DNA of 46,851 bases, from IMG/VR virus record IMGVR_UViG_3300020165_003481, positions 1-46,851 of that record. The stretch is one strand, 5' to 3'. The translations under genes and the position numbers were made by a program. Under the pieces are notes generated by a model that was not told the DNA's origin, ran no database searches, and saw nothing but the letters and a program-made list of their open reading frames with translations. Shown here one piece after another: positions 16,623 to 38,064 of the stretch. Within the stretch, counting starts at the first letter, position 1; each line of letters begins with the position of its first letter. The DNA is from a virus.

Positions 16623-17993
16623 TTATACTCCTTGAAACTTGTTAAAGTAATCTAAGTCTTCGGGAGTTCCGATACCCCACATCCCATCAAAGTGGAATGT
16701 TTTAATCTTTTTACCGTCTTCCAACGCTTCATTAAAAACAGGACAGACGTAGAACTCATTGTTAAACCTGACATTGTTCTTAATCATTTGCTCTGCATAT
16801 TTTACATAATCAGAGCCGTGCTTCCAATAATAAATTCCAGCAGTAGCAACATCGCTGATGGGTTTCTTCTCTGCAACCTCGGATACAAACCCTTGTTCAT
16901 CGAGTTTGGCGAAACTCCACTTGGGGTGTGTTGCTGTAAACGTTAACATCCCTCCATCGACTTCGTCAGCTTCCATAGAGTACATAAACTCATTGCTATC
17001 CCAATCTAAGAACTGATCTGAATTTGCAAAGATGAGTGGCTCATCATTATTAATAAATTCTTTTGCTAATAAAGTTGTGCAGGCTGCACCTTCAGTCATG
17101 CCATCAACCTGCACTATCTCACATCCAGGTGAAATTAGACCGAGAAGATGTTTCAAATTATATTTTTCATAGTGCTCTTTCTGCACCACGAAGATGTGGC
17201 GAGCATCGATATTTAAATTCTCAACAACAAGTTGAATCATTGGCTTGCCTCTAACCTCAATAAGCGGTTTAGGGAAAGTATACCCTGCTTGTTGAAACCG
17301 AGAGCCGGCGCCGGCCATTGGTATTAGTACGTTCATTTTACCTCCTTGCCATTTAGGTCTTACATTTTGTTTTCGATTTACTTTGTCAATAGTTTCTTTA
17401 ATTTTCTCATAAGTTACATCGCTACTATTTTTTACAGCGCATAAGTGTGCACCACTATTAATTGCTGCTTTGCGACCGTGATGCGAATCTTCAATTACTA
17501 CCGTTTCGTGAGGGTCAACATTAGCCCTCAACATACATTTCATATATATTTCAGCACTAGGCTTTGGCTTTGTGACATCTTGGTTAGAATAAAGAAAGTC
17601 AATGTGTTCAAAGAATCCTCTTCTAATAAGTTGCAACTTAGCTGTATCTCTGATTGAATTAGTCGCACATGCTAGGGTGTAACCATCAAGCTTTAGTTTT
17701 TTAAGAACCTTAATGATTCTATGATCATATTCAAAATTGTCAATTATCTCAACTGTCTTTTGTTGTTTAGCTTTCCAGATGGTTGTATGAAACTCTTCTG
17801 GTAACCCTTTCTTGTCTGAGAGCATTTGCAATTTCTTTGTTGTTGAAAGTCCATCGTAAGTTGACAGATGCTCTGCTCTGTTTACAACATAACGTTCGTC
17901 AATGTCTCGTAATGCTAAATTGAGAGCTTCATAGTGAAGTTCTCGGGCATCTACAAGGACGCCATCTAAATCAAATACTACTAATTTAACCAT
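16623..17993 (-). CDS. HAD phosphatase fused to sugar-1-phosphate nucleotidyltransferase
   Basis: Residues 1-~205 are a HAD domain of the beta-phosphoglucomutase type (LVVFDLDGVLVDARELHYEA, TNSIRDTAK, KPKPSAEIY, VIEDSHHGRKAA). The remaining ~235 residues are a nucleotidyltransferase of the glucose-1-phosphate type (NVLIPMAGAGSRF, FPKPLIEVRGKPMI, FANSDQFLDWD). The frame is continuous across both. At the junction, AAGGAGG followed by TAAA precedes an in-frame ATG (17336), so the second domain may also be made alone. Together with the SIS-HAD gene this resembles the logic of GDP-heptose synthesis, lacking a visible kinase. The start at 17993 overlaps the previous stop; a GTG 18 bases further up is less likely. 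Confidence 0.84.
   Translation of the reverse strand: MVKLVVFDLDGVLVDARELHYEALNLALRDIDERYVVNRAEHLSTYDGLSTTKKLQMLSDKKGLPEEFHTTIWKAKQQKTVEIIDNFEYDHRIIKVLKKLKLDGYTLACATNSIRDTAKLQLIRRGFFEHIDFLYSNQDVTKPKPSAEIYMKCMLRANVDPHETVVIEDSHHGRKAAINSGAHLCAVKNSSDVTYEKIKETIDKVNRKQNVRPKWQGGKMNVLIPMAGAGSRFQQAGYTFPKPLIEVRGKPMIQLVVENLNIDARHIFVVQKEHYEKYNLKHLLGLISPGCEIVQVDGMTEGAACTTLLAKEFINNDEPLIFANSDQFLDWDSNEFMYSMEADEVDGGMLTFTATHPKWSFAKLDEQGFVSEVAEKKPISDVATAGIYYWKHGSDYVKYAEQMIKNNVRFNNEFYVCPVFNEALEDGKKIKTFHFDGMWGIGTPEDLDYFNKFQGV
17334..17347 (-). promoter_or_regulatory. Strong internal Shine-Dalgarno and in-frame ATG inside HAD-nucleotidyltransferase gene
   Basis: The minus strand reads AAGGAGGTAAAATGAAC. This is an ideal Shine-Dalgarno with a four-base gap to an ATG at 17336, in frame with the long protein and exactly at the boundary between the HAD and nucleotidyltransferase domains. 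It suggests the nucleotidyltransferase is also translated independently, or that two genes were joined by loss of a stop codon. Confidence 0.65.
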
Positions 17994-18915
17994 TTCTAAA
18001 TTTCTCTCCACTTTTAAAAGGATGTTTGTCTATATCGTAACACTTATCCGCGTCAAGCCACATATCACCCTCTCTCCAGCCTACATAATTCTTACCAGAC
18101 AATTCAATGTCTTTTTCAAAATAGTAATACTGTACAAAACTAGGAACCTTGGGTGGGCTTGGTGGGTTTTCTACAAAGTCTTTGCTCCATCGAGTTAACC
18201 AACCGTAGTAGCTTGGCTGTTGTTTCCAAGTATCTTTCCATTTCCAATAAAAGATCTGCGAAGTATGGTACCAACCTTCTTTTGAGTCGTTATTTGACTT
18301 AGCAGTGCGCCAATCCGACTCGCCGCCTCTGTAGTCCGATGTGTCTAACTCAAGCGCGTCGTGTGCATTCAGCAGGCGCCCGTGAATCTTGTCATTGATA
18401 AGTGAATGTTCTTTGTTATAAATTAACGCTCTGATATAGTAATCCGCTTCTTTGTTAGCTGGTGTAAGGAATCTTTCATCCCACATGCCAATCTTTTTTA
18501 CTGCGTCGGCGGTATAGCTGACAATATTATCACCAAGTTGGCCAGTAATAAAATTATATTTTTGATGCATCTTGAGCAAATTAGTGGCCCAGTTTGGATT
18601 AAGAACAATATCATTTTGCATTGTAACAACAATCTTGGCATCTGGGTCTTTCAGATCTTTAAATCCGTGTAACAGTGCTTCATTCCAATTGCGTGCTAAG
18701 TTGCCGGTATCCCAATCGGGTCGAGTACTGTTGTGAATTACGTTTACTTTGTCAACAAACTCAGCGTTTAATTCAAACTCAGAGTGATTGTTTATTATAT
18801 TGACCTCGGTATTTGGTATTGAACTAAAGTCAGTCTTGTTAAAAAGTCTATCAAGAGTTTCGTTCAATACTCCAGTTCTTCTATATGTCACGATAAATAT
18901 TTTTAAATTTTTCAT
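17986..18915 (-). CDS. Glycosyltransferase, GT-A type (family 2-like)
   Basis: The N-terminus IFIVTYRRTGVLNETLDRLF is the nucleotide-binding opening of GT2-like transferases. VVTMQNDIVLNPNW supplies a DxD-type acidic pair region (QNDI). A later GMWDERFLTPANKEADYYIRAL carries the ED-like acidic site typical before the catalytic base. Length 309 fits. It is preceded by the CMP-sialate-synthetase-like gene with a 4-base ATGA overlap. Donor and acceptor are unknown. Confidence 0.78.
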   Translation of the reverse strand: MKNLKIFIVTYRRTGVLNETLDRLFNKTDFSSIPNTEVNIINNHSEFELNAEFVDKVNVIHNSTRPDWDTGNLARNWNEALLHGFKDLKDPDAKIVVTMQNDIVLNPNWATNLLKMHQKYNFITGQLGDNIVSYTADAVKKIGMWDERFLTPANKEADYYIRALIYNKEHSLINDKIHGRLLNAHDALELDTSDYRGGESDWRTAKSNNDSKEGWYHTSQIFYWKWKDTWKQQPSYYGWLTRWSKDFVENPPSPPKVPSFVQYYYFEKDIELSGKNYVGWREGDMWLDADKCYDIDKHPFKSGEKFRNG

Positions 18916-19580
18916 TTTTTTCTCATTTTTTCGTATAAAATTTCTGCCAACATAAACTCAAACTCAGTATCAACGTCGACCGCTTCCACTTCATCTAGCA
19001 TATAAGGATAAAACTTATCGCCTAGAATGTTTTTGTTCTTAATCATAATCTCACGAGGTAGAATATTTGCTGCAAAGTTTAGGGCATATATATCTGGTAG
19101 ATCCTGTGACCTTGGGTGATTCTTAGGATCGTAGTTTATCGCTCTCCCATCTAACCACATATACTCTTTGATAATATTTGTGGTAACAACACAGTCGTAG
19201 TCTGCTTCACGTTTGTAAATATCGATACATTCTTGTACAGTTTCATCAGTCACCAATGGGCTCGTCACTGGAGTCCAGAGAATATCTTTACATTCCAGGC
19301 TAGTGGCAAGATGCACGTATACATCCCCCATAGGTACCGTATCACTAGCGTAGAAAGGATCTCTCTTCATGGGATAAGCGCCCAAGTCCTCTGCAATCTG
19401 AAGCATTTCATCATCATCAGAAGTTACTACGACTTTATTAACATCGCGCAGTCTTAGCGCTTGCTCGACTTTGAGGGTTAACATATTAGAACCCCCAAAA
19501 GGTCGGATATTCTTGCGAGGAACACGCTTAGAACCGCCTCTAACAGCAATTAAAACATTAATATCAATGTCTCTATGCAT
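18912..19580 (-). CDS. CMP-sialic-acid synthetase-like cytidylyltransferase (NeuA family)
   Basis: The protein has the family signature VRGGSKRVPRKNIRPFGG near the N-terminus, then VVTSDDDEMLQIAEDLGAYPMKRD and a DTVPMGDV helix, WTPVTSPLV and the C-terminal EAVDVDTEFEFMLAE. These match acylneuraminate cytidylyltransferases, which activate sialic, legionaminic, pseudaminic or KDO-type ketosugars with CTP. Length 222 is normal. Its neighbours include a protein with GT29 sialyltransferase motifs, so the product could be used within the same block. The exact ketosugar cannot be told, and no NeuB-type synthase is seen in this window. Confidence 0.86.
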   Translation of the reverse strand: MHRDIDINVLIAVRGGSKRVPRKNIRPFGGSNMLTLKVEQALRLRDVNKVVVTSDDDEMLQIAEDLGAYPMKRDPFYASDTVPMGDVYVHLATSLECKDILWTPVTSPLVTDETVQECIDIYKREADYDCVVTTNIIKEYMWLDGRAINYDPKNHPRSQDLPDIYALNFAANILPREIMIKNKNILGDKFYPYMLDEVEAVDVDTEFEFMLAEILYEKMRKK

Positions 19581-20293
19581 TAAAACTGTCCTCCATTAAC
19601 GTCAATAGCTGCGCCAGTTATATAAGACGCTGCGTTTGAGCATAGGAACAAGATCGGCATTGCCTGTTCTGTGGTAGTGGCAATCCTCCTAATTGGAATT
19701 TTTGCCTCTAATTCTGCAATTGCTTCTTCAGACATTGATTCCTGCAGCATTTCCGTCATAGTTTGACTCGGACACACGCAATTGACCAGTATATTATGTT
19801 TTGATACTTCATTTGCAAGCTGCTTTGTTAAACCAATGATTCCATATTTGCTGGAGGTATAATGTACTCCACTAACGATACTTTTATTTCTTCCAGCAAT
19901 AGATGATACATTAACTATTCTACCATAATTTTGTCTTTTCATTAAGCTAACTGCTTCTTTACAGATTACAAAAAATGATTTTAAGTTGATATTCATTACT
20001 CGATCCCATTCATCAGTATCGATACAATCTATCGGCTCGCAAAGATTGGTGCCAGCAACATTAATTACGAAATCAATTTCATCAAGTTTAGAGAAAATGT
20101 ATTGTATATTTTCTATATTAGTTAAATCACACCTAAGATCCTTCACTAGGTGCAAATTAGCAGAAGTTCTCGACGCATTATATACAACGCAACCAGCGGC
20201 AGCAAGTTGCCGGCAAACTTCTTTACCGATCCCCCTACTACCGCCAAAAACTATTGCCGTCTTGCCTAAAAAATTGAAATTTATATCATTCAT
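19580..20293 (-). CDS. Short-chain dehydrogenase/reductase
   Basis: This is a classical SDR: KTAIVFGGSRGIGKEV (cofactor loop), NVAGTN (strand four), the catalytic serine in IVNVSSIAG and YTSSKYG (YxxxK), then VNCVCPSQTMTEM. The arginine of the cofactor loop and the Ala-Ser-Arg after strand two suggest NADP. About 238 residues is normal. The start at 20293 overlaps the cupin stop. In a glycan cluster it would oxidise or reduce a sugar carbon; the substrate is unknown. Confidence 0.87.
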   Translation of the reverse strand: MNDINFNFLGKTAIVFGGSRGIGKEVCRQLAAAGCVVYNASRTSANLHLVKDLRCDLTNIENIQYIFSKLDEIDFVINVAGTNLCEPIDCIDTDEWDRVMNINLKSFFVICKEAVSLMKRQNYGRIVNVSSIAGRNKSIVSGVHYTSSKYGIIGLTKQLANEVSKHNILVNCVCPSQTMTEMLQESMSEEAIAELEAKIPIRRIATTTEQAMPILFLCSNAASYITGAAIDVNGGQF

Positions 20294-20717
20294 CTTCGTA
20301 TACATGATTTACATCTGGTCTTGTTATAGCGTATCTAACACCGGGACCGTCACCTACACATTTGATGTGATGCCATGTATTTTTGGGAACAACAATAATA
20401 TCGTTCTTTTTAACTCGTTGGGTTCCTATACCCTCGATCCACCATTCCCACTCACCATCCAAGATTACCCAGTTTTCGTCTGCATCTGGATGAAAGTGTT
20501 TACGGTTTCCTTCGCCGGGTTGTTGTTGGATGACAACACCACCAAACAATTCGTTGTATGCGATACGAACTGCCCAAGAACCCATTCCTAGATCCTCACG
20601 AAGGTCTTTTAAATTAACTGTTGAACAGTTTTCATATTTTACTAGCTCTGAATGTCCTACACCATCGTTTTTAAGGACATTAACAAGATCGCTATCTGAA
20701 TTAGTCTTTATTCCCAT
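20286..20717 (-). CDS. Cupin-fold protein, 143 aa
   Basis: The cupin motifs are visible: motif 1 in GEGNRKHFHPDADENWVILDGE (two His and a Glu as metal ligands) and motif 2 in DIIVVPKNTWHHIK. The N-terminal half is an extra helical and strand region. Small cupins in sugar clusters can be isomerases or epimerases or can simply bind sugar. It overlaps the adjacent genes by 1-8 bases. The activity cannot be assigned. Confidence 0.8.
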   Translation of the reverse strand: MGIKTNSDSDLVNVLKNDGVGHSELVKYENCSTVNLKDLREDLGMGSWAVRIAYNELFGGVVIQQQPGEGNRKHFHPDADENWVILDGEWEWWIEGIGTQRVKKNDIIVVPKNTWHHIKCVGDGPGVRYAITRPDVNHVYEDE

Positions 20718-22612
20718 TACCTTGTCTCGTTTTTAAATTTTGGTAACAAAATGAAATTTTTGATACGCATTGATACACTAGTAGAATTTAACATGTTAAG
20801 TACCGGTTTGTCAAGTTTAAATCTCTTATCTTTTAATAAAACATTTTTACAATGCATCATTTGTGATAATTGGTCGTGTAAAACTTTGTCTGGGCCATTT
20901 GGTGTTCCCGAAGATCCATATGTATCTGTATATTGTTTGGTATACTTGCCTTCATCTGTCTGCGGTGTGCCCGTGTTGTAAAAATCTAACCCAAATACAG
21001 CTAATTCTTTAATTGGGTATCTTAACAGCATATTTAGCGCGCCATATCCAGAATTAAAGTTAGCTGAGTAAACAGTGTAAACGCCTTTGTCAAACTTTTC
21101 AATATGTTGTTTCGCATAAATTTCCCAATATAGAGCCCACCTGTCCCAAGAGGTATCCTCATTTCTAAGATGCACAAGCGGTACACCTAATTCTGCAAAC
21201 TGGGGTTCGTATATTTCATCAACAAACGCCCACGTTCCATCTGATTTCATTTGACTTGCTGTGTCATTACATATAACAAATTTAGGCTTATCTTCTACCG
21301 GGAGAGTTTTTAAATGCTCAATCACTGGCGGGCCATAATTAGAGTTTAAACAGCTTTGTATAATATCTGTTCTCGTGCCGTAATCTTGTTCGTTTGGTAT
21401 ACCATGTTGTATCCGGACCACAACATCATATGAATCTATGAGTTCTCCCTGATTTGAGCCTTTCATATATGGCGCTGGGCCAACAAATGCTACTCTTTTG
21501 TCTTTCAAATATGATGATAGTTCTGTATTGACATTGGAAGATTTAATAAAAAGTGACTTTGGGTTTAATCTCTGGAATTGATCAACACACTCTGAAGTAG
21601 TAATCTTTCTGCAATTCTGTGTTGCTTTGTTTACACGACCAGCAATATTGATCCAAGGATTAGTAGTGGTCATTAATTCTGAATATTCAATTTTGGACAG
21701 TATGTTCTCTATAGTCTCCTGGTCTTCACAGTTTATATCAAGCAATTGTTTTCTTACACTGACATTTAAATTGTCAAACCACTCATGTTCTAAATCAAAA
21801 AACAGTTCAACTGTCTCACGATTAAAAAAATTAGTTATATGATGATCTTTGACTGGGATTATTCCGTTATCAAGCACTATCTTCTGAAATACATTCTTCA
21901 CTAACATAGAGTTGTATTTTTGAGACTCGTTGGCAGCATATCTGTCAATCGTAGCTATTTTTTTAAATGCCGGCCTGATCCATTTCCACATCTCGTTCAT
22001 CCTATAGTCATTCCAGGCGCCGTCTAAGTTATGTGGGGCTTCCATATCAGTGTTCCCGTTGTCGTAGACCATTTTGTGGCTACACACAACATGTCTTAGG
22101 AATGGTATTTCTAATATATTAAAAAGATGACAAGCTTCAACACCACCACCAAAATTAGTAATCATTGGAAAAAACCACTTCATTAGTGAATGGTGAACAA
22201 CCTTCATTCCACAGTGAGTAAAAGGCAATACAGAGGCATCTTTGCTGTCTCGGTAATCAGTGTTGGCAGCATAAGGGGTAACCATACCGTTGCCGGGATA
22301 GTACGTTAATACAGCAGGCTTAAATTCATTTAAATCCTCAAGAATTTGTTCTTTCACTCCTAGATTTTTCAATGGTCTGAAATTGTAATCATAATCCACA
22401 AACGCATAATACTCGTATTGTTGTGGCACCGTCGAGGCTAAAACATTTCTGGTATCGGTCCACGTGGTATTTGGACAATATTTAAGAGCGTCTTTGTTTG
22501 GTCCATCGTGGGTAACAAAATAGAAATCACATTCATCTTGTTTAGAGAACAATTCAACGTGTTCAGGGTTAGGCGTTAGCGGCGTAACTTGCAATACGCA
22601 AAACTTTTTCAC
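20717..22612 (-). CDS. Two-domain glycosyltransferase with GT29 sialyltransferase-like C-terminus
   Basis: The C-terminal ~250 residues carry both large sialylmotifs of family GT29. Motif L reads RVAFVGPAPYMKGSNQGELI, then DSYDVVVRIQHGIP and YGTRTDI. Motif S reads FNSGYGALNMLLRYPIKELA with VFGLDFYNTG. In GT29 these bind CMP-sialate. The N-terminal ~300 residues are a separate transferase-like domain (YYAFVDYDYNF with a DYD acidic pair). GT29 is best known from animals; bacterial and viral members exist but are few. With the CMP-sialate-synthetase-like gene nearby, transfer of a sialate-like sugar is plausible. I chose the GTG at 22612, which overlaps the gmd stop as GTGA; an alternative GTG lies 15 bases upstream. 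Confidence 0.74.
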   Translation of the reverse strand: MKKFCVLQVTPLTPNPEHVELFSKQDECDFYFVTHDGPNKDALKYCPNTTWTDTRNVLASTVPQQYEYYAFVDYDYNFRPLKNLGVKEQILEDLNEFKPAVLTYYPGNGMVTPYAANTDYRDSKDASVLPFTHCGMKVVHHSLMKWFFPMITNFGGGVEACHLFNILEIPFLRHVVCSHKMVYDNGNTDMEAPHNLDGAWNDYRMNEMWKWIRPAFKKIATIDRYAANESQKYNSMLVKNVFQKIVLDNGIIPVKDHHITNFFNRETVELFFDLEHEWFDNLNVSVRKQLLDINCEDQETIENILSKIEYSELMTTTNPWINIAGRVNKATQNCRKITTSECVDQFQRLNPKSLFIKSSNVNTELSSYLKDKRVAFVGPAPYMKGSNQGELIDSYDVVVRIQHGIPNEQDYGTRTDIIQSCLNSNYGPPVIEHLKTLPVEDKPKFVICNDTASQMKSDGTWAFVDEIYEPQFAELGVPLVHLRNEDTSWDRWALYWEIYAKQHIEKFDKGVYTVYSANFNSGYGALNMLLRYPIKELAVFGLDFYNTGTPQTDEGKYTKQYTDTYGSSGTPNGPDKVLHDQLSQMMHCKNVLLKDKRFKLDKPVLNMLNSTSVSMRIKNFILLPKFKNETR

Positions 22613-23580
22613 AGTTCGCGCTCCCACCTTTCAATCATTTCATCGAGCATGGAACTGAACGTATACTCTGGCTGCCAGCCAAGGATTTCACGGGACTTTG
22701 AAGAATCTCCTTTAAGATACTTAAGTTCCTCTGGGCGCATATACTTTGGATTTTGTACAATGTAATCTTCGTAATTCATATCAAGCTTAGAAAACACTTG
22801 TTCACACAGATCTCTAACTGAATGCGTCTCACCTGTAGCAACAATAAACTCGTCGGCAACATCATGATTTACAATTAAGTGCATGGCACGAACATAATCT
22901 TTAGAATGACCCCAATCACGGTAAGAATCCATATTCCCTAATTCAAGCTTATCTTGCAAGCCTTTTTTAATTGATACTGCTCCTTTCACAACCTTGTTGG
23001 TAACAAAGTTCGATCCGCGGCGGGGAGACTCGTGATTGAATAGAATACCGTTGCAAGCATGTAGCTTGTAGGCGTGCCTGTAATGTCGCACAAGGTTGTA
23101 TCCCATAACTTTAGCACATCCATAAGGACTAACCGGGTTCATAGGCGTTGTAAGCCTCTGGACACCATCATCATCCACTGAGTTACCAAACATTTCAGAA
23201 GAACTAGCTTGATAGAATTTAGCATTTGGAACAAGCGTACGGTATACCTCTAGCATACTCAAAACACCCAGGGCGTTTGTTTGAATTGTGAAGGATGGCA
23301 TATCATAGCTAACTCGAACGTGACTCATAGCGCCTAAATTATAAATTTCATCTGGCTGCACATCTTGTGTAATTCTAACCAAAGATGGATAATCGAGTAG
23401 ATCACCATAGTGTGTGTGCACATGTTCGTTTAGTCCAAGCTTGGCTAGCCTGTGGTTTTGGTTTTCTGCAACCGAATGTCTTCTGACAATTCCGTGCACC
23501 TCATAGCCCAAAGATAGCAGGTATTCTGAAAGATAACTTCCATCTTGACCAGCAATTCCAGTTATAAGTGCTTTTTTCAT
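22609..23580 (-). CDS. gmd: GDP-mannose 4,6-dehydratase
   Basis: The motifs match Gmd closely: ALITGIAGQDGSYLSEYLL, VHGIVRRHS, HYGDLLD, EIYNLGAMSHVRVSYDMP, QASSSEMFG and PMNPVSPYGCAKV (catalytic YxxxK), FNHESPRRG, WGHSKDYVRAMH. It converts GDP-mannose to GDP-4-keto-6-deoxymannose, the entry step for fucose, perosamine, rhamnose and colitose. Length 323 is slightly shorter than usual (about 345-370). Many phage and bacterial glycan clusters carry it. It overlaps its neighbours on both sides by 4 bases. Confidence 0.94.
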   Translation of the reverse strand: MKKALITGIAGQDGSYLSEYLLSLGYEVHGIVRRHSVAENQNHRLAKLGLNEHVHTHYGDLLDYPSLVRITQDVQPDEIYNLGAMSHVRVSYDMPSFTIQTNALGVLSMLEVYRTLVPNAKFYQASSSEMFGNSVDDDGVQRLTTPMNPVSPYGCAKVMGYNLVRHYRHAYKLHACNGILFNHESPRRGSNFVTNKVVKGAVSIKKGLQDKLELGNMDSYRDWGHSKDYVRAMHLIVNHDVADEFIVATGETHSVRDLCEQVFSKLDMNYEDYIVQNPKYMRPEELKYLKGDSSKSREILGWQPEYTFSSMLDEMIERWEREL

Positions 23581-24167
23581 TTAAAAATCTCCATTATTGT
23601 TAAATCGGGCCAGTCTTCAATCGTCCACTTTTTTGGCTTGGTGGATATTGCGTCTGGTAATTTTTGTAGACCAAGTTGTGCAGTTTCAGGAGTCATATAA
23701 TAGTGGTATCCAATAGAAGAGATATCCTGCTCACGCCAAGGTATATCAGGTAGTCTACCATCATATGACATTTTTTTCAAGCGCAAAGCTGCTTCTTTAT
23801 CATTCGTTAATATCATTCCGCCGCGGCCCAGACTTAAGTGTTTTCTAAATTGAAAACTTAAGCACATAAATGTATTAGGAATGTATGAATTTTTTTCCCA
23901 TAATACAGCAGCGTCAATAATATTAGTATCTCCAATAAAATAATAGTCGTGCCAGACCTCGTCTCTCCATCGAAGGTCAATACCGAGTTTGCTAGCAAGA
24001 AAAGGTACTGAAATATATGTTCTATGTGGGACTGAAATCTTCTTTATTTCTTGATCTCGCAGACATAATTCAATTGCATGCGTGCAACAATCGACAGCAA
24101 CCGCGTACGGTGAGCCAAAAAACTTAGCTATTTCGTTTTCAAAATCGGTGATCACATCAAAGCTCAT
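23577..24167 (-). CDS. Half-length DegT/DnrJ/EryC1-type aminotransferase homologue
   Basis: The protein keeps the PLP-site features of the DegT family: the N-terminal AVDCCTHAIELCL, the strand IIDAAVLW with its aspartate, and FQFRKHLSLGRGGMILTND in which K is the expected PLP lysine. At 196 residues it is about half the usual 360-400 residues, and the large C-terminal lobe is missing. Neither end shows a frameshift; start and stop both fall in the normal ATGA overlaps. Either a reduced enzyme or a remnant that has lost activity is possible. Sugar aminotransferases of this type make amino-deoxysugars. Confidence 0.74.
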   Translation of the reverse strand: MSFDVITDFENEIAKFFGSPYAVAVDCCTHAIELCLRDQEIKKISVPHRTYISVPFLASKLGIDLRWRDEVWHDYYFIGDTNIIDAAVLWEKNSYIPNTFMCLSFQFRKHLSLGRGGMILTNDKEAALRLKKMSYDGRLPDIPWREQDISSIGYHYYMTPETAQLGLQKLPDAISTKPKKWTIEDWPDLTIMEIFK

Positions 24168-24708
24168 CTTTTAAACACTCCACATTAAGACTTACCAGGA
24201 CTCCATTTTCTTTATCCATATGAGGGATATACGCTTGTGAGTGGTCATCAAATTTAGCATGCTCAGTTTTTCTCCAATCATAATTTTGTATATTACAAAA
24301 ATTGAGACTGCTGAGCAGGTTAGCTAAACTCCTAAAATCATATGTGGTCTTATGATAAATAGTTTTGGTAGACATTGGCATTTTACCATATAATGGACCA
24401 AGAATGTTTTCTAGCTTTATTTTGTTATCCATATATAACTGTGTTAAAGCTGGGAAATTTGGTACAGCTAACCGCAATACTCCATATTGTTTTAAAACAC
24501 GTTTCCACTCTGTTAATAATGGAATAACCTCTTCTCGATCAAAATATTCAATTACGTGTGATGCATAAATAAGATCGACTGAATTGTCTTCAAACTGGCT
24601 CAGATCCGCTATATCACGATAGTCTAGATGCTCATAGTCGCCACCATCAATGTGAACCCAATCATCACCAAAGTTACGCCAGCCGCAGCCAATATTTATT
24701 TTAATCAT
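24157..24708 (-). CDS. SAM-dependent methyltransferase
   Basis: The start at 24708 is preceded by AAGGAG seven bases upstream and overlaps the stop of the upstream gene. Motif I is INIGCGWRNFGDDWVHID, followed by DLIYASHVIEYFDRE (a VIEY variant of the HxxEH signature), a WKRVLKQYGVLRLAVPN strand, and a C-terminal region. This is a class I methyltransferase of the Methyltransf_11 type. It probably modifies a sugar or lipid in the glycan pathway; the acceptor is unknown. Confidence 0.8.
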   Translation of the reverse strand: MIKINIGCGWRNFGDDWVHIDGGDYEHLDYRDIADLSQFEDNSVDLIYASHVIEYFDREEVIPLLTEWKRVLKQYGVLRLAVPNFPALTQLYMDNKIKLENILGPLYGKMPMSTKTIYHKTTYDFRSLANLLSSLNFCNIQNYDWRKTEHAKFDDHSQAYIPHMDKENGVLVSLNVECLKDEL

Positions 24709-25120
24709 CAATGAACTCCTTGTCACTGGCTTGACCATAATAAGGCCCAGTCTTATATTCTAAAACCAGAGTGTTATCCTCAAGAATCATATAATTGTGA
24801 CCGCCGAATAGTGTAATCGATAAATCACCAGTCTCCAGTATTCTTCTTTCTACAATAGTGTCATCGAGATCATAGAATATAGCTTCTACTCTGCCACTCA
24901 TCACAACCCAAGATTCTTGAGCTATGGCACTTTTGGGAACAGTTTTGTAGATATGCTTATGGGGCTTGAAAGTTTTGCCTTTATTAAAATTTAATATTGC
25001 AAGCTGCAAGTATTGTTCTTCTTCTACTATATCATTTCTAACATCGACCAAATCTGCTGGTCTACACACAATGTGTAGCAGCTTTTCTGGTTCAATTTTA
25101 GAATAAATTTTGTCAAACAT
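24701..25120 (-). CDS. Cupin-fold protein (WbuC-like), 139 aa
   Basis: The protein has a single cupin barrel: ILNFNKGKTFKPHKHIYKTV with the HKH pair and then VVMSGRVEAIFYD, followed by GDLSITLFGGHNYMIL. This resembles small cupins in O-antigen clusters (WbuC type), whose function is uncertain. It is the second cupin in the block, not closely similar to the first. It overlaps the GNGPSL gene by one base. Confidence 0.73.
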   Translation of the reverse strand: MFDKIYSKIEPEKLLHIVCRPADLVDVRNDIVEEEQYLQLAILNFNKGKTFKPHKHIYKTVPKSAIAQESWVVMSGRVEAIFYDLDDTIVERRILETGDLSITLFGGHNYMILEDNTLVLEYKTGPYYGQASDKEFIDD

Positions 25121-25812
25121 TATAGCCCCAAAGCTTCTTCAAGTGACATTCGTTTAAAACAACGCAATGTAGTAATTGGGCTACAATTTATAACCTCTAT
25201 GCCTGCTTGGGCAGCACGATAGGCAAAAGCATTCCACGTTGGCAAGTGAAATTTGATGCCATCTGGAATATTGTACTCATCACCTTCTTGCTGATAATCA
25301 TCAAACCAGTAATTCGGGTTCTTATCTGGTGTTTTTTCCATTTTCAACCCAACGCCATCTTTCACACAACCGTCTACAAATTCTACATAGTTGCAGTCAA
25401 CTCCCAATAAAACAATCTTTTTGTACCCCAAAGCTGCAGCGGTTGAACAAGCGTTAGCTCCGGAGTTGCCATTGTCGTGAAATTGAGCAAAATCTTTTAG
25501 AGATGAGTTCCATTTGTTTGTTGTACCGTAAGGTAATAAATTAACAAACTGAAACTTATCTCTGTTTTCATTTATATCGATAATATAGAAACACTTCTCA
25601 ATTGGAGTATTATCGATTAAATTGTTAAAACTTTCTCGGTGGTTCTCGGTAACTCGATAATCATAACAACCATGGTATTTTGGCCACCAATTCATCCTCT
25701 CATATGCTCTATATGCTGAATTTAATCCGAAGGTGTCAAATCCATCAAGCTTTGAAAAGTCGACATCAGCTAAAGATGGTCCGTTTCCCATAATCACTAT
25801 AGTATCACTCAT
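25120..25812 (-). CDS. GNGPSL-type glycosyltransferase (GT42/DUF115-like)
   Basis: The N-terminal motif IVIMGNGPSLADVDFSKLDG, followed by FGLNSAYRAYERM, and the later GANACSTAAALGYKKIVLLGVDCNY are the pattern shared by GT42 sialyltransferases (Campylobacter Cst type) and DUF115/Maf proteins, which transfer nonulosonic acids. This is family-level inference; residue identity to any one is unknown. It starts at 25812 (ATG behind GGAG, overlapping the preceding gene). Two nonulosonate-transferase-like genes beside a CMP-synthetase gene is notable. Confidence 0.66.
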   Translation of the reverse strand: MSDTIVIMGNGPSLADVDFSKLDGFDTFGLNSAYRAYERMNWWPKYHGCYDYRVTENHRESFNNLIDNTPIEKCFYIIDINENRDKFQFVNLLPYGTTNKWNSSLKDFAQFHDNGNSGANACSTAAALGYKKIVLLGVDCNYVEFVDGCVKDGVGLKMEKTPDKNPNYWFDDYQQEGDEYNIPDGIKFHLPTWNAFAYRAAQAGIEVINCSPITTLRCFKRMSLEEALGL

Positions 25813-26662
25813 AATAACTCCAAAAAGCATCTGCTCTAGTGTTCATATATTCGTAACAAGAAGACATCGTATCAAACCAAGCTTCATCTTTATGTTGAAC
25901 ATATTCATTTAAAATTGTTTCACAACCAAGCATCTTTGCTTCCATAACAAGCCTGGGGCAAGTATCACTAGCTAACGGTAAGAAGATTAAGCCTTTTGAG
26001 GTTGACATCTTTATTAGCAATTCGTGATAAGGTAGATTAGAGATCAGTTCGTATTCTAAATTATTCGCCTTTGCATGCTCAACAGCGCTAGCGCTTGGTT
26101 TAACAGGCGACACAGAATCTAAAATAAGATATTTGTCATTTTTCTCGTTATCTTTAATAGACGACATAAATCTTAAATCGCCGTCACTAAACACTGAACT
26201 TAAAACGCTGCATTTGTCTTCTTTTAATGCATCGACCTTGTTAACAATAATATCTTTTTGTTTTTCACTCATAAACCAAACTCTTTCAGCATATCCGTAA
26301 AAAGCAGAATTTATTTTCCCATGGAGTTGCTGTTCGCAATCGCACGGTTCACCTTCAATTAATTGATGTAACTCAAGTGAGCGATGTTTACAAATTTTAT
26401 AATCATATTCAATAATTGAATATGAACAATTTTTAGCCATATATAGCTTAATTTCATCTTGTAATTGAAAAAAATTGCAAACTATAAAATGGTGGCTATC
26501 TTTGTTAAATTCTACTTTATCTTTATCCAATTTAGCACAGTGTATTGCTCCGACATCAAAACCTCTTTGTTTGCCAAAGTTCATAATGGCTTCAGTGGTA
26601 AGTTCTGCACCACCGGTACCATCAGCTATAAAGTAATCTGAGATAAAAGCAATTTTTTTCAT
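25805..26662 (-). CDS. GT-B-like glycosyltransferase, 285 aa
   Basis: The N-terminus IAFISDYFIADGTGGAELTT is the first Rossmann strand and loop of GT4-like transferases, and the C-terminal LIFLPLASDTCPRLVMEAKML with the EA pair fits the donor-binding site. At 285 residues it is short for GT4. Length and a central cysteine-containing section (GEPCDCEQQL) make this an uncertain member. It overlaps the neighbouring glycosyltransferase gene by 4 bases. Confidence 0.68.
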   Translation of the reverse strand: MKKIAFISDYFIADGTGGAELTTEAIMNFGKQRGFDVGAIHCAKLDKDKVEFNKDSHHFIVCNFFQLQDEIKLYMAKNCSYSIIEYDYKICKHRSLELHQLIEGEPCDCEQQLHGKINSAFYGYAERVWFMSEKQKDIIVNKVDALKEDKCSVLSSVFSDGDLRFMSSIKDNEKNDKYLILDSVSPVKPSASAVEHAKANNLEYELISNLPYHELLIKMSTSKGLIFLPLASDTCPRLVMEAKMLGCETILNEYVQHKDEAWFDTMSSCYEYMNTRADAFWSYYE

Positions 26663-27927
26663 AGCAAGTCATTAAGTAAATTTTCTACTTCCTCTTGCTT
26701 ATCTTGCTCGGACTTGACATCAACTATTGAACCTACAAATAATTCATACATTTTTTCAGCTGAAAATCGTTGTTTTAGCTCAGTAGCTCGGGTACAACTA
26801 TTTGATGCTAATGAATCCGCAACTGTATTTGTAATGTCTTCATAACAGGCCCTCATTTGCTCTCTAGCCGAATGTAATCTTGCATATGCCCAACCAGACT
26901 CCTTCAGAATTACACCGTCCCAAACAGCTTCAGGGGGAACTTGTCCAATATCGAACGCAACTTCATAAAACTGTGGTTGTGGAGGGATTGATTGATTATA
27001 CAAAAAGTCACATTGTCCGGACCAGCCAATTGATACGACTGGTATGCCGCTGTATGCCGCTTCAAAAATAGGTAAACCGAAGCCCTCGCCGTGAGGGATA
27101 GCAACCATAGCATTAACACTCTTGTCTTGATACAAAGAATGCATTTCCTCATCAGACATATGACCATGTAACATATAAATTTTGCATTTTCTGTCTTCCG
27201 AAGAAAACTGATTAATCATATTTTTTATATTTGCAAAACATAAGTTTCTATCCATCAAACAATTTTTTGCAATATTTGTTTTGATAACAAGTCCTACATT
27301 TTCATCTTTAAACTCTTCAACAAAAGCTTTCACGGTTGTTTGTAAATTCTTTCGAGGGCCCATCTGGGCGACTGTAAGGAAATTAAAGTCTGTATCTAAT
27401 TCTAGTTCTAATTCTGGTAAGTTCTCAAATTCCTTTACTGGGTAGTTTACTACGCTAACCTCTACTTGGTTTTCCAACACAACGGGCTGACCAGTGGCCT
27501 CTTCAACTGCTTCAAAACGAGCGGCAGTCAAAACATTTTTTGAATGATTTGAAACAACAATAATAGAATCCATTTGGTTGCATTTTGCGGTCCACTCTGG
27601 TGCGCAATGGGTCGTCTCAATGCCAGCGGTGTACCCGACATCTCTAGGCGCTATTTTTTGAAATTCATTAGGTATGGTGACCTGCAAAGAAATGTCAAAC
27701 TGTCCGCCTTGTTGGATAAATCCAACAGTTTTTTCAATTGTTTCATCAATCCATCGTCTTTCAGGTGTATCATCAACAATCCAGGATGTGCTACCCCAAG
27801 TGATTGGTTTGATATACACATTAAATAAGTCTTCTCTACTTCTTAGAGCGCGCAGGGCAAACCGTGCTTGTTCGCCATATCCACTACGTGTTAAAATAGG
27901 TCCAACTAATATTATATTCTTTTTCAT
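26659..27927 (-). CDS. Family 4 glycosyltransferase, 422 aa
   Basis: This GT-B fold protein has IILVGPILTRSGYGEQARFAL at the N-terminus and the GT4 donor site IPHGEGFGLPIFEAAYSGIP (ExFxxxxxEA-type), with FLTVAQMGPRKNL at the start of the C-terminal domain. GT4 enzymes transfer a sugar from a nucleotide donor with retention. The gene overlaps the preceding transferase by 4 bases. Donor and acceptor are unknown. Confidence 0.84.
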   Translation of the reverse strand: MKKNIILVGPILTRSGYGEQARFALRALRSREDLFNVYIKPITWGSTSWIVDDTPERRWIDETIEKTVGFIQQGGQFDISLQVTIPNEFQKIAPRDVGYTAGIETTHCAPEWTAKCNQMDSIIVVSNHSKNVLTAARFEAVEEATGQPVVLENQVEVSVVNYPVKEFENLPELELELDTDFNFLTVAQMGPRKNLQTTVKAFVEEFKDENVGLVIKTNIAKNCLMDRNLCFANIKNMINQFSSEDRKCKIYMLHGHMSDEEMHSLYQDKSVNAMVAIPHGEGFGLPIFEAAYSGIPVVSIGWSGQCDFLYNQSIPPQPQFYEVAFDIGQVPPEAVWDGVILKESGWAYARLHSAREQMRACYEDITNTVADSLASNSCTRATELKQRFSAEKMYELFVGSIVDVKSEQDKQEEVENLLNDLL

Positions 27928-29210
27928 GCTACCTCCATTAAGTGCCAGCGTTTATAATTCTTTCTAGTTTCCCAAGAGCCACTTTCAGCAACAACCCTGT
28001 CCATAAATTCAACCCATTGTTTTTCATAATTTTCAAAACTAAAGTTTTCTTTTACGTGTTTGATACCAGCTTCGGACATTTTCTTGTATTTTGTTTTTGG
28101 TTGTTTGAGTGCTTTCGTCATAGTTTTTTCAAAATCACTTTGACTAATCCTATCTTCATAGATGTATGGCACCTGCAATGAACCAATTATTGATTTTGAG
28201 CTTGGCTGAATACCCCAACCAAACCACTCGGTGCCATTTGTGACCTGCTCTTGTAAGCCTCCAGTCATATTGACAATAATTGGGGTACCACAAGAAAGCG
28301 ACTCTAAAGTAGCCAATCCAAAACCTTCCGCATCGGAAATATTAATTGTATAGTCGGATGCGTTATACATAATTGATAGCTGTTCTGGGGGTACTTTATT
28401 GGTTGAAAGTAACACTTGTCCTTCATTCAGACCCAGGTGCTCAATGATGTGCGGCAGATCTTGTCCGTGTTGATCGCGAGCATCTGTGTGCATTACCAAA
28501 GTTGCCTTATCATGACCAACCTTATCAAGCCACTCCTTAAACCACCAAATCAAGGTACCAGATTGTTTTCTACGTGCGTTTCGGTTGTTCCAAAAGAATA
28601 TTTTCTTCTTTGGATTTTTTAACTTTTCGCTAGATGAACTAAAAATCTTATCGCGCGCCTGCTTTACCAAGTCTGCTTCTTGACCATCAGTTAGCGGCCT
28701 ATAAAAAACTGAGTTTACAGCATGACTGATGTGTACACCAAACGAATCCGGAGAGCAGGTTCTAACAATTTCTTCAGTAACTCTAGATATTGACACAACA
28801 TAGTCAGTTGAATCATAGTAGGCTTTGTTGTATAGAGGAACCGGGAAGTTATCCCATACATGATAATATATCATAGGGACGAGTGACCGTACTTCATCTT
28901 CAATTTGCCAAAGCCATTCATAAAAACGTGGATCTGTCATAAACCAAAGTGCATCAGGCTTCTCTTTTCTCAAAGCAGACCTAATGGTTTCTTCATTTCC
29001 GTATCCATCAACTGGAATAATTAAGAAATCTTTTCCGTATGGATCTACCGTTATTGGGGTGTAATCAGCGTGTTTCATAGCACCCCCCAAACAAACAAAC
29101 TGGTAACGGCCAGTTTTTAACAAAGCTTCAATCATATACTTTGTTTGTGTGCCAACACCAGAAGGTGAAAGCGGGTGGTCAGATAAGACCAAAATTTTCT
29201 TTTTTGTCAT
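27924..29210 (-). CDS. Family 4 glycosyltransferase, 428 aa
   Basis: The sequence has ILVLSDHPLSPSGVGTQTKY at the N-terminus, FFWNNRNARRKQSG at the start of the second domain and the donor site INISDAEGFGLATLESLSCG, the GT4 signature. It is the first gene of the glycan block, starting 7 bases after the nuclease gene behind a GAGG Shine-Dalgarno. It is similar in layout to the next gene and could be its distant paralogue. Confidence 0.84.
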   Translation of the reverse strand: MTKKKILVLSDHPLSPSGVGTQTKYMIEALLKTGRYQFVCLGGAMKHADYTPITVDPYGKDFLIIPVDGYGNEETIRSALRKEKPDALWFMTDPRFYEWLWQIEDEVRSLVPMIYYHVWDNFPVPLYNKAYYDSTDYVVSISRVTEEIVRTCSPDSFGVHISHAVNSVFYRPLTDGQEADLVKQARDKIFSSSSEKLKNPKKKIFFWNNRNARRKQSGTLIWWFKEWLDKVGHDKATLVMHTDARDQHGQDLPHIIEHLGLNEGQVLLSTNKVPPEQLSIMYNASDYTINISDAEGFGLATLESLSCGTPIIVNMTGGLQEQVTNGTEWFGWGIQPSSKSIIGSLQVPYIYEDRISQSDFEKTMTKALKQPKTKYKKMSEAGIKHVKENFSFENYEKQWVEFMDRVVAESGSWETRKNYKRWHLMEVA

Positions 29211-33771: not shown

Positions 33772-33848
33772 TGGCTGGGGCGGCTGGACTCGAACCAACA
33801 ACATCCGGAGTAACAGTCCGGTGCACCTGCCTGTGGCACTTCACCCCA
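33772..33848 (-). tRNA. tRNA-Asn(GUU), copy 1
   Basis: The minus strand folds as a cloverleaf. The acceptor arm pairs TGGGGTG with CGCCCCA, followed by G73 and an encoded CCA. The D arm is GTGC/GCAC, the anticodon loop is CTGTTAC (anticodon GTT) on a CCGGA/TCCGG stem, and the T arm is GTTGG-TTCGAGT-CCAGC. The U1-A72 pair and G73 match bacterial tRNA-Asn. The D stem and anticodon stem share a base, leaving no separate base 26, so the fold is slightly unusual. 77 nt. Confidence 0.88.
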
Positions 33849-34448: not shown

Positions 34449-34524
34449 TGGCTGCCCCTCGCGGACTTGAACCGCGGACAAGATGATTAACAGTCATCTG
34501 CTCTACCAACTGAGCTAAGAGGCA
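34449..34524 (-). tRNA. tRNA-Asn(GUU), copy 2
   Basis: A canonical 76-nt cloverleaf: acceptor TGCCTCT/AGGGGCA with G73 and encoded CCA, D arm GCTC-AGTTGGTA-GAGC, anticodon arm GATGA-CTGTTAA-TCATC (anticodon GTT), and T arm CGCGG-TTCAAGT-CCGCG. It has asparagine identity features (U1-A72, G73). The first 38 nt overlap the 3' end of the 90-aa reading frame. Confidence 0.95.
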
Positions 34525-35323: not shown

Positions 35324-35815
35324 TTATCTATCAGAACTACGGCCAGAGGTTCTTGGCTCTGGTATTTCAAAATCTCGTGCTTTTTTGGCCAACTCAGAAG
35401 AACTATCTAATTTTTCTTCTCCGCCGATACCCCATAATAATTCAATGCCAAGCTCTTCGCAAACAGCTTGTTCCGGAGTGTTGGACTTACCTCGGTCACC
35501 ACCATTTGCAAAGAAATCGGGGTTAAGTCGACGAATAGCCTCACACACTGTACCATCAGTATCATCTACCGAATCTACTAATACTACACCTTTAATTGCG
35601 TTTAAAATTTCAACTCTTTTGGTCCATTCCATAAAAATAAACCCTTTTTTTCTATAAAGCCAATTATCTGAGTTTGCAATAACAATTACATCTCCAAATT
35701 CGGCGGCATGCCGAATCATTCGAATGTGGCCGGCATGGACAGGATCAAACCCGCCTGAAACCATTACGGTAGGCTTTTTTTGTTCTTTGTCGAACATTTC
35801 TCTATGTACAGTCAT
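35324..35815 (-). CDS. Cytidylyltransferase-like protein (HxGH nucleotidyltransferase)
   Basis: The N-terminal VSGGFDPVHAGHIRMIRHA carries the HxGH signature, with VIVIANSDNWL and the WTKRVEILNAI helix and DDTDG strand, matching the RfaE-C or glycerol-3-phosphate cytidylyltransferase fold. The family joins CTP or ATP to a phosphorylated acceptor (heptose phosphate, glycerol phosphate, phosphopantetheine, NMN). The start at 35815 follows GGAG. It could serve the heptose-like logic of the glycan block or NAD salvage; the acceptor is unknown. Confidence 0.84.
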   Translation of the reverse strand: MTVHREMFDKEQKKPTVMVSGGFDPVHAGHIRMIRHAAEFGDVIVIANSDNWLYRKKGFIFMEWTKRVEILNAIKGVVLVDSVDDTDGTVCEAIRRLNPDFFANGGDRGKSNTPEQAVCEELGIELLWGIGGEEKLDSSSELAKKARDFEIPEPRTSGRSSDR

Positions 35816-35818
35816 TTT

Positions 35819-36304
35819 TTACTCCAATATAACTTTTTCAAAGTTGCACAAAACTAATATATCATGTAATTTGGATGGTGACAAGTCAGCTTGGTCAAAT
35901 ATTTTTATTACTTTCCAATCAATTATGTTTGAGATTCGTAAAGCATATAAGATCCACTCACTACAATACCATTTATTTTTCTCTTTGATTCTAAATGGTA
36001 AACACTGTGAAAGTAGCATTCCAATCCAATCGTATTTTGTTTCTTTAGTCAAACTAAAAAAGTCTAATATTAAATTATGTTGTTCTTGATTAACAGATAT
36101 TTCATAAAAATCCCATTTTTCAGGATCATAATTATTTACTTTTCTTTGCACTAATCTGGCTTTAATGAAGGGACTAATCCCAATCCAGGTTTGTTTATCG
36201 TCTAAAACTAACTCAGCATGACTGTAGATACTTTTTGTCCATTTGCGAACAACTTTGTTCACCCAGTTTCCTTCACCTTTGTATAACGCAACCCAGACCT
36301 TCAT
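35819..36304 (-). CDS. Permuted papain-like (NlpC/P60-YiiX type) protein
   Basis: The start at 36304 is used rather than one 39 bases upstream inside the previous gene. The order of catalytic residues is permuted: a His in KSIYSHAELVLDD comes first, followed by a Cys in WYCSEWILYAL. This matches the circularly permuted NlpC/P60 superfamily (YiiX/YebB-like), which includes lipid- or amide-cleaving enzymes. 161 residues. Could act on cell-wall peptide or lipid, or be inactive; a role in lysis is possible. Confidence 0.7.
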   Translation of the reverse strand: MKVWVALYKGEGNWVNKVVRKWTKSIYSHAELVLDDKQTWIGISPFIKARLVQRKVNNYDPEKWDFYEISVNQEQHNLILDFFSLTKETKYDWIGMLLSQCLPFRIKEKNKWYCSEWILYALRISNIIDWKVIKIFDQADLSPSKLHDILVLCNFEKVILE

Positions 36305-36308
36305 ATAA

Positions 36309-36521
36309 TTACTTATCAGGTGTATTGTTTTTTGTACACTCATTCATGTAATTTAAATTGTGCCTTTTCTCAAATACAGCTCTTTCAATTTCTTCAGTTT
36401 CAAGATCATACTCTTTTTTTATATCCCAAAGTGCATTCTCAATTCCGTCTTGAAAATCAAAATTAGGTTTTTCTTCTTTGGTTTTTTGTTTCTTAAACCA
36501 GTCTAAAATAAATATTGACAT
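36309..36521 (-). CDS. Charged hypothetical protein, 70 aa
   Basis: The start at 36521 was chosen because AAGGA precedes the ATG by 7 bases. A longer open frame extends upstream but only into the tmRNA. The protein starts MSIFILDWFKKQKTKEE and is highly charged, helical and acidic-basic mixed. It begins 15 bases after the tmRNA 3' end, so it is probably on the same transcript. Confidence 0.6.
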   Translation of the reverse strand: MSIFILDWFKKQKTKEEKPNFDFQDGIENALWDIKKEYDLETEEIERAVFEKRHNLNYMNECTKNNTPDK

Positions 36522-36535
36522 GTTGTTTCCTTCGA

Positions 36536-36904
36536 TGGTGGAGGCGGCGGGAATCGAACCCGCGTCCAGAATAAATTCAATAGTAGTCATTCACAAGTTT
36601 GTCTAATTTACTATCACAAATCAGAAAAGATAGGTAGTTTACTCAACCGCGCTTACTACCCTGTCGCGCTCCACTTGTCTTCTTCAGACCAAGGCATCCA
36701 TTGTGATTTTTTATTTTCGCAGGACTTCTACCTGTTATTTTAGATTGGGTATCAAGGCTCTAAAAAGCCCCGTCGATTAAGCGGCTAAGCGCTGAGCGAA
36801 ATGTAAGTTGTTATTTGCAACTAAATTATTTTGAACGATTAAGGCTGTATCTTACCTACTTGCACTAGTTTTCTTCATTACTCTGTCGAAGCCTGGGCGC
36901 CCCC
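36536..36904 (-). ncRNA. ssrA: Phage-encoded tmRNA (ssrA), one-piece
   Basis: The minus strand starts GGGGGCGCCCAGGCTTCGAC and ends with the tRNA-like arm GCGGG-TTCGATT-CCCGC, acceptor CGCCTCC, A73 and encoded CCA. The 5' GGGGGCG pairs with CGCCTCC (one G-U). Between these lies a complete tag reading frame. tmRNA rescues stalled ribosomes with SmpB by adding a degradation tag. The RNA is 369 nt and in the normal gene order, so it is not the split, permuted type of Alphaproteobacteria or cyanobacteria. Its first base follows a coding stop directly and the next gene starts 15 bases after its end, so it is probably cut out of an operon transcript. No SmpB gene is seen here. Confidence 0.95.
36777..36818 (-). 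other. tmRNA tag reading frame, ANNNLHFAQRLAA
   Basis: Inside the tmRNA the resume codon is GCA at 36818-36816, followed by codons for NNNLHFAQRLAA and a TAA at 36779-36777. The start (AN) and the LAA end match known tags recognised by ClpXP and other proteases. The middle differs from the common bacterial ANDENYALAA type, so the phage would mark proteins with its own tag. Confidence 0.85.
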
Positions 36905-37105
36905 TTATTTCATAGTAATTACTCCAACCGGAGCATTATTCTCACCATCAAGCCAAATAACTTTTGGATTAACTATTTTACTTTTAACTGCTTTCTTAAA
37001 GAATATATTCTTTTTGGCTGATTTCATAGCAGCACTCTCTGTAGTATGCTTGCTGATTAGATCACCCTGGATATAGTGGCCATTGTACTTATATACTTTA
37101 TACAT
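36905..37105 (-). CDS. Basic hypothetical protein, 66 aa
   Basis: The start ATG overlaps the stop of the thioredoxin gene (TAATG), implying translational coupling. The protein MYKVYKYNGHYIQGDLISKH ... VGVITMK is basic with about three short strands and a helix, and ends with its stop codon directly against the tmRNA 5' end. No family recognised. Confidence 0.65.
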   Translation of the reverse strand: MYKVYKYNGHYIQGDLISKHTTESAAMKSAKKNIFFKKAVKSKIVNPKVIWLDGENNAPVGVITMK

Positions 37106-37692
37106 TATAGTAACCCATCGATTGTTGTGCGTACATATTCTTCATTAAATCCAACAGCTCCAGAATGAATTTTTAAATCTTTAGTAATAAATACATAAGT
37201 TGGAAACCCACTAATCAAATATCCGTTTATCCCAGTAGGATCAGATACACTTCGATCAGCATAAAGTACTGGGGCTGTGGTAATACCATGGGAAGTTACC
37301 CACTCATTAATTTCTTCTTCGTTGGGCGGCTCGCCGGTTAAACCATCTACCAATACAGTAACAAATTCTACGTTGCCCTCATAGTCATCTTGTATAGGCT
37401 GAACATAATGCCCAGCGTTCTGGCAGGGGCCACACCAAACTGTAGAGAAGTCTAATATGATGACCTTTCCTTCGTGATCATATAACTGCCAAACTTCTTT
37501 GTTTTGGTCATAAAATATCATATTGCAAACACTAGAGCCTAAAGCTTCTTGATCGCAAATATCTGTTTTAATAATACCAAATTGAGTTGGTATCTGTTCT
37601 GCGGCGCTGGTAGTGTCTACAGAGAGTTTGTTTGATTCAGTTTGTAGGATTGCAGGACAACCAAACAGGGTCAACATTAAAAATTTAATCAT
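37105..37692 (-). CDS. Thioredoxin-like lipoprotein (TlpA/redoxin type)
   Basis: The N-terminus MIKFLMLTLFGC has a short lipobox-like end (LFGC, C12), so the protein is probably a lipoprotein. Residues ~75-190 are a thioredoxin fold with the active-site motif WCGPC (C87/C90), a VEFVTVLVDG strand and cis-proline-type FPTYVFI. TlpA-type proteins act in the periplasm as thiol reductants or oxidants. Start behind AAGGAATAAT. A periplasm-directed phage redoxin is unusual; it could also be used for disulfides of virion proteins or superinfection. Confidence 0.84.
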   Translation of the reverse strand: MIKFLMLTLFGCPAILQTESNKLSVDTTSAAEQIPTQFGIIKTDICDQEALGSSVCNMIFYDQNKEVWQLYDHEGKVIILDFSTVWCGPCQNAGHYVQPIQDDYEGNVEFVTVLVDGLTGEPPNEEEINEWVTSHGITTAPVLYADRSVSDPTGINGYLISGFPTYVFITKDLKIHSGAVGFNEEYVRTTIDGLL

Positions 37693-37694
37693 TA

Positions 37695-38003
37695 TTATTC
37701 CTTATCAATATTATAATTTTTGCAAGCTCTTCTAAAATTTTGCTGTGTTAATCCTAGGAATCTAGCAGCATCAGTTTTGTTTTTAGTAACTGAGAGAGAG
37801 AACTTCAATACAGCTTCTTTAGTGATAGAAGTCATTTTGTTCCATATATCAAAACCATATAATCTGTGATTTAATAAGTTAGTTGAAAGTTCTAATTTGA
37901 CTGCTATCACATCTTCTAATGATAGATTATTTAAACAAGTAATTAACTGATCATTTAACTTGTTTTGATCTTTTAATTTATTTATAATACTATATTCAGG
38001 CAT
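37695..38003 (-). CDS. Fis-like helix-turn-helix protein
   Basis: The last ~40 residues, ITKEAVLKFSLSVTKNKTDA followed by ARFLGLTQQNFRRACKNYNI, form a Fis/NtrC-type DNA-binding helix-turn-helix. The N-terminal ~60 residues are helical and probably dimerise. The ATG at 38003 is preferred over a TTG at 38021. It is the first gene after the promoter at 38036-38064, so it could be an early regulator of the operon that includes the redoxin and tmRNA. Confidence 0.75.
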   Translation of the reverse strand: MPEYSIINKLKDQNKLNDQLITCLNNLSLEDVIAVKLELSTNLLNHRLYGFDIWNKMTSITKEAVLKFSLSVTKNKTDAARFLGLTQQNFRRACKNYNIDKE

Positions 38004-38035
38004 GCTTTCATCCGCTAGCAAACAATCACAATTTA

Positions 38036-38064
38036 ATTGTAACCAGATTTCGATAACTTGTCAA
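38036..38064 (-). promoter_or_regulatory. Sigma70-like promoter, TTGACA-N17-TACAAT
   Basis: TTGACA at 38064-38059, a 17-base spacer, then TACAAT at 38041-38036 on the minus strand, within CTGGTTACAAT. The TGGTTA lead-in to the -10 matches those at 30007 and 33332. It precedes the operon of Fis-like protein, thioredoxin-like lipoprotein, 66-aa protein and tmRNA. Confidence 0.8.

Follow-up and report, generated by a model that had tools for sequence, protein, structure and literature searches.

The window analysed here, a 46.9-kb linear IMG/VR record, carries on its minus strand a complete one-piece tmRNA gene (ssrA, 36536–36904) with a tag of its own, ANNNLHFAQRLAA. We consider it probable, at roughly 0.62, that this gene yields a functional one-piece tmRNA which the phage supplies early as a ribosome-rescue RNA. 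The assessment rests on a complete and conserved anatomy, compensatory evolution, a selected tag frame, the finding of no phage SmpB, a recurrent gene cassette and a promoter.

The one-piece call of ARAGORN falls at exactly 36536–36904 and gives the same tag. The Rfam model RF00023 matches over its full length (positions 1–374) and scores 103.9 bits, the gathering score being 47; its E value of 1e-39 lies far outside chance. By direct reading, the acceptor stem consists of seven pairs, GGGGGCG/CGCCUCC, including the G3.U wobble, with its 5' strand at 36898–36904. The opposite end (36536–36563) contains, according to both the covariance model and direct reading, a standard T arm (GCGGG-UUCGAUU-CCCGC), the 3' acceptor strand, the discriminator A and an encoded CCA. 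The resume codon GCA lies at base 87 of the tmRNA and opens a reading frame of 13 tag codons closed by TAA (36777–36818), which reads GCA AAT AAC AAC TTA CAT TTC GCT CAG CGC TTA GCC GCT TAA. The region of the four expected pseudoknots, PK1–PK4, is spanned by the Rfam model with low posterior and contains conserved covarying helices. The gene order is linear (5' acceptor strand, tag, 3' acceptor strand), so the gene is not circularly permuted like the two-piece tmRNA of the Melnitz type; being full length, it is also not a 3' ssrA fragment of the prophage attachment-site kind, and its large carriers are T4-like. The sequence-only reading of this DNA had claimed a complete one-piece tmRNA with its own tag, and had named covariance scoring and the tag frame of relatives as checks. 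Both parts of that claim are confirmed: the model scores the gene strongly rather than as unrelated, and the frame is intact in relatives, as is the C-terminal LAA.

On comparison with its relatives, the gene is evolutionarily maintained and its tag frame is under selection. A scan of IMG/VR with the tag pattern GTTGCA AAY AAY AAY NNN CAY TTY returned 99 viral stretches, and those with enough flanking sequence were tmRNA genes, including stretches missed by ARAGORN and read by eye. Where ARAGORN made no call, the gene might have been taken for broken; this was rejected, as such loci are either intact or cut by a contig end, some of them with odd T loops or no CCA. Every one of 74 distinct full-length family genes has G3.U and discriminator A, while acceptor pairs 4–7 swap between G-C, A-U, C-G and U-A by compensatory changes. 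Furthermore, in a consensus fold computed from 59 core sequences, many helices have changed on both of their strands. Tag positions 1–7 were set by the search pattern and are uninformative on conservation. The tags measure 13, 14 or 15 amino acids, vary by whole codons and are in frame without exception. At the C-terminus, 53 distinct tag DNAs have L at position −3 in 52 cases, A at −2 in 52 and A at −1 in all 53, and the alanine at −2 is written with all four GCN codons. This persistence of LAA and of the frame across synonymous codons is the signature of selection acting on a translated peptide.

The family is not uniform. The window tmRNA represents a longer sub-form with a differing PK2–PK4 middle, common to L170, L183, L196 and L206, and it alone in the set has alanine at tag position 8. 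In the closest relative (L002:5452–5797), nine extra bases lie between the usual TTAGTT and GCA and the frame is kept; ARAGORN misplaces the tag start in this gene, where the resume position may move to CCA or remain at GCA. Three members (L162, L196, L226) have an atypical T loop, with the T arm GGCGG-GGCAGTA-CCGCC in place of a TTCRAnT loop, and CCA is not encoded in L160, L169 and L220, so that standard working would not be required of every member. The tmRNAs of L208 and L211 reach about 434 nt through an extra segment of about 100 nt in the pseudoknot region and have C-G at acceptor pairs 4–5.

Such conservation bears on whether the gene was simply captured from a host or a prophage and retained by chance, for which a route exists in prophages that integrate in ssrA and can carry pieces of it (PMC9004378). 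This origin is very improbable and appears largely refuted by the depth of the family, in which helices covary and tag codons are constrained, and by the conserved position of the gene. A relative of the redoxin that neighbours the window tmRNA is encoded on nine viral contigs, and all nine of these close relatives have kept the tmRNA, beside the redoxin in some and a few kilobases off in others. An apparent lack of the tmRNA in L003–L005 was rejected, the gene lying a few kilobases away in each. The T4-like genomes of the carriers also speak against a passenger: the T4-type major capsid protein Gp23 was found in 12 of the 12 large carriers tested. By Gp23, the nearest isolates are distant ones, namely Microcystis phage Mel-JY01, Rhodothermus phage RM378 and the Flavobacterium immuto phages, at 34–45% identity. 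The window itself also encodes gp25-type baseplate and PhoH genes, together with a weak late-sigma-factor match.

The same anatomy can be set against a role as a decoy, in which the RNA would titrate host SmpB or the ribosomal A site and so block host trans-translation, in the manner of the short tmRNA of mycobacteriophage DS6A. The DS6A molecule amounts approximately to the tRNA-like domain only, and a molecule of similar build is a strong inhibitor of tmRNA (PMC4131195). A decoy would also fit the SmpB search: PF01668 matched in none of 20 related viral records, which may be fragments, and gave control matches in 10 bacteria. However, the window tmRNA has a complete mRNA-like domain, an in-frame LAA tag and compensatory changes beyond the tRNA-like domain, none of which a decoy needs, and the intact tag under selection makes this role highly unlikely. 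The search for a phage smpB, which had been suggested along with the initial proposal, can be read only with the possible fragmentation of the records in mind, although tmRNA exceeded the cut-off in 19 of these 20 and 14 of the carriers are longer than 130 kb. In these possibly fragmentary records, the phages do not appear to encode a complete trans-translation system including SmpB, and the phage tmRNA would thus depend on the SmpB of the host.

The surroundings of the gene, all on the minus strand, point to a cassette. Its first gene encodes a 108-aa HTH protein (37695–38021) that is kept next to the tmRNA in relatives. It is followed by a thioredoxin/redoxin-domain protein (37105–37692; PF00085, E=5.4e-7), which about 40 of the 74 distinct family members have upstream of their tmRNA, and by a 66-aa ORF (36905–37105) which is kept in relatives and has no Pfam family. 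The stop codon of this ORF abuts the tmRNA 5' end (36904) without spacing. On the other side, a 70-aa ORF containing ALWDIKKEYDLETEEIERAVFEKR (36309–36521) starts 14 nt beyond the tmRNA CCA, with a possible ribosome-binding site AAGGAA ahead of it; about 40 of the 74 distinct members have a homologue 3' of their tmRNA. This ORF has the conserved motif LW[DE]IK....L.TEE....V..KR, and family searches gave no convincing known family for it; it is a candidate partner. Further on come a 174-aa protein (35819–36343; phrog_1128, E=5e-34, with papain-like amidase as a hint only) and a cytidylyltransferase-like protein (35324–35815; PF01467) within the conserved gene order. The order HTH ORF, (redoxin), 66-aa ORF, tmRNA, 70-aa ORF, 174-aa protein, cytidylyltransferase and HNH is largely common to relatives. 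The sequence-only reading had placed the tmRNA in an operon with a Fis-like regulator and a redoxin. The shared direction with a redoxin and an HTH gene stands, and the Fis-like label is weak, being a sub-threshold HTH_8 match (E=0.035).

A sigma-70-like promoter, TTGACA-17-TACAAT (38036–38064), stands about 15 nt upstream of the HTH ORF and matches 11 of 12 consensus positions. Over the whole scan, promoter-like sites were about as many as in shuffled sequence; the site gains its weight from the recurrence of TTGACA at the same place in three relatives (L002, L322 and L285). In T4-like phages, sigma-70-like promoters drive early genes, which makes early expression of the window tmRNA plausible, as had been suggested from the operon. 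A tmRNA expressed from this upstream promoter would have to be cut from a longer transcript.

An early-type promoter would equally suit a spare tmRNA that replaces host molecules which are cleaved or overwhelmed when defence RNases or toxins of the host cut tmRNA, tRNA or mRNA during infection. RNA-targeting defences with SmpB-like domains are predicted to engage tmRNA (PMC11090510), and the phage also encodes tRNA-Asn genes. We regard replacement as a doubtful explanation of the gene, though less so than the decoy or the passenger.

Under the preferred reading of early ribosome rescue, the tmRNA would be co-transcribed with its neighbours from the host-type, sigma-70-like promoter, and host RNase P together with host 3' nucleases would release it from the transcript. 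Host AlaRS would charge it with alanine through the G3.U pair, and host SmpB and EF-Tu would load it for use on ribosomes stalled on broken mRNA. The ribosomes would be freed, and the added tag ending in LAA should be recognised by host ClpXP-type proteases. The benefit to the phage would be that ribosome rescue is guaranteed while host transcripts decay and host transcription is shut down. We infer every one of these steps, from the expression of the window tmRNA through to its benefit. Bacteria normally have their own tmRNA, so that a second copy from the phage may not be needed.

A different emphasis falls on the tag, which as far as searched appears to belong to a phage-specific family, ANNNxHF..LAA. 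The pattern ANNNx[H/N]F, searched in 84,980 species genomes with GTTGCA required ahead of the tag, so that bacterial tags encoded otherwise would escape, gave 29 stretches. Two of these lie within tmRNAs, both on phage-like MAG contigs. The first (L145) is the 101,404-base contig PBIO01000025.1 of a Halobacteriovorax MAG, exactly equal in length to the IMG/VR viral contig L081 and apparently a phage contig binned into that MAG. The other (L139) is a 10-kb Marinimicrobia MAG contig with genes syntenic with the window. The other tmRNAs of these two MAGs, taken as bacterial, have the tags ANNDFAPAMAA and ADYGYAAAA. The family tag occurs in 1 of 245 Marinimicrobia genomes, on that 10-kb phage-like contig. 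More generally, the tags of sampled Bdellovibrionota and Marinimicrobia differ from that of the phage family and are mostly shorter; an attempt to find the host through tmRNA tags ended with this mismatch, and no host was assigned. In addition, a search of IMG/VR with the canonical tmRNA 3' end as its pattern, which chose at least 120 stretches regardless of tag and is neither complete nor random, showed the ANNN start in 23 of 41 one-piece tmRNAs among the matches listed and in 0 of 47 permuted ones. In a tree, the ANNN-type viral genes and a few further viral tmRNAs group together, apart from the bacterial ones (support 0.95), the bacteria being sampled Bdellovibrionota, Marinimicrobia and a few others; this sampling is narrow, and tmRNA alignment across phyla is noisy.

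Phage specificity, the difference from the sampled bacterial tags and a tag start that varies little even when unforced are what one would expect if the tmRNA worked and its main value lay in a tag unlike that of the host. Proteins tagged during infection would then be handled differently, through another adaptor, at a slower or faster rate of degradation or by a separate protease, with phage proteins protected or host ones recycled. Yet LAA, the main ClpX determinant, is retained in about 51 of the 53 tag DNAs, which argues for an ordinary degron, and the divergence could merely track the phage tmRNA lineage, a clade apart from the sampled bacteria. Such steering is unlikely as the main value of the gene, if the least unlikely of the alternatives. 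In a bolder and rather improbable version, a large uncultured T4-like clade would have evolved a tag of its own, ANNNxHFxxxLAA, which is unlike that of any host and changes the fate of the stalled proteins it marks in infected cells, with the co-conserved 70-aa or 66-aa ORF as a possible adaptor or partner.

Phage tmRNAs as such are already known. The initial remark that they are rare needs qualifying, since tmRNA was reported in 402 of 18,146 phage genomes (2.3%), with two-piece forms prevailing in aquatic phages, and both functions it had proposed, rescue after host collapse and tag-directed degradation, are already stated in the same work (PMC9004378). Huge phages carry tmRNA together with SmpB (PMC7162821), and in phage Wildcat no lytic gene is expressed more highly than the tmRNA (PMC7474061). 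The tmRNAs of isolates, including mycobacteriophages Bxz1 and Wildcat, Bacillus phage G, Streptomyces BE phages and Stenotrophomonas phages, likewise combine a tmRNA gene with a tag of its own, which is ANSNVASAYALAA in Streptomyces phage Elmer. In contrast to the present family, which belongs to a distant uncultured T4-like lineage, they have another tag family and share DNA only in the T arm and 3' end. BLASTN of the window tmRNA region against phage isolates gave no match, and the family-typical sequence matched these isolates in the T arm and 3' end only. Methylophilales phage Melnitz and the pelagimyophage ssrA are T4-like too, and their tmRNA has been proposed to be early (PMC9004378). 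Unlike the one-piece window tmRNA, that of Melnitz is two-piece (permuted), of alphaproteobacterial type and accompanied by a glutamine riboswitch; Rfam found no riboswitch at gathering level in the window. Bacterial one-piece tmRNAs (RF00023) share the full-length covariance match, the tRNA-like domain, G3.U and the LAA tag end, whereas ANNNxHF..LAA was not found in the chromosomes searched and the phage clade stands apart from the sampled bacteria. The short tmRNA of DS6A, also phage-borne and presumably reliant on host SmpB, is without the tag-coding part (PMC4131195), which in the window tmRNA is complete and conserved. To these the present analysis adds a one-piece family that is large and conserved, occurs in an uncultured T4-like lineage and, as far as searched, has a phage-specific tag. 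Phage tmRNAs have usually been reported genome by genome; here the tmRNA appears as a stable, widespread component of such a lineage, with a tag that the searches placed almost exclusively in phages. This opens the testable question of whether a phage gains from its own ribosome rescue and whether its own tag alters which proteins are destroyed.

Two further features of the window deserve mention. Two tRNA-Asn(GTT) genes lie near the tmRNA, at 33772–33848 (a weak copy, 29 bits) and 34449–34524, and the pair was found also in L002, L006, L008 and L010; the window tag contains three Asn codons, perhaps by coincidence. At 12976–29210, the translations alone indicate a long run of sugar-nucleotide, glycosyltransferase, epimerase and methyltransferase-like genes, which in a T4-like phage suggests surface-glycan modification.
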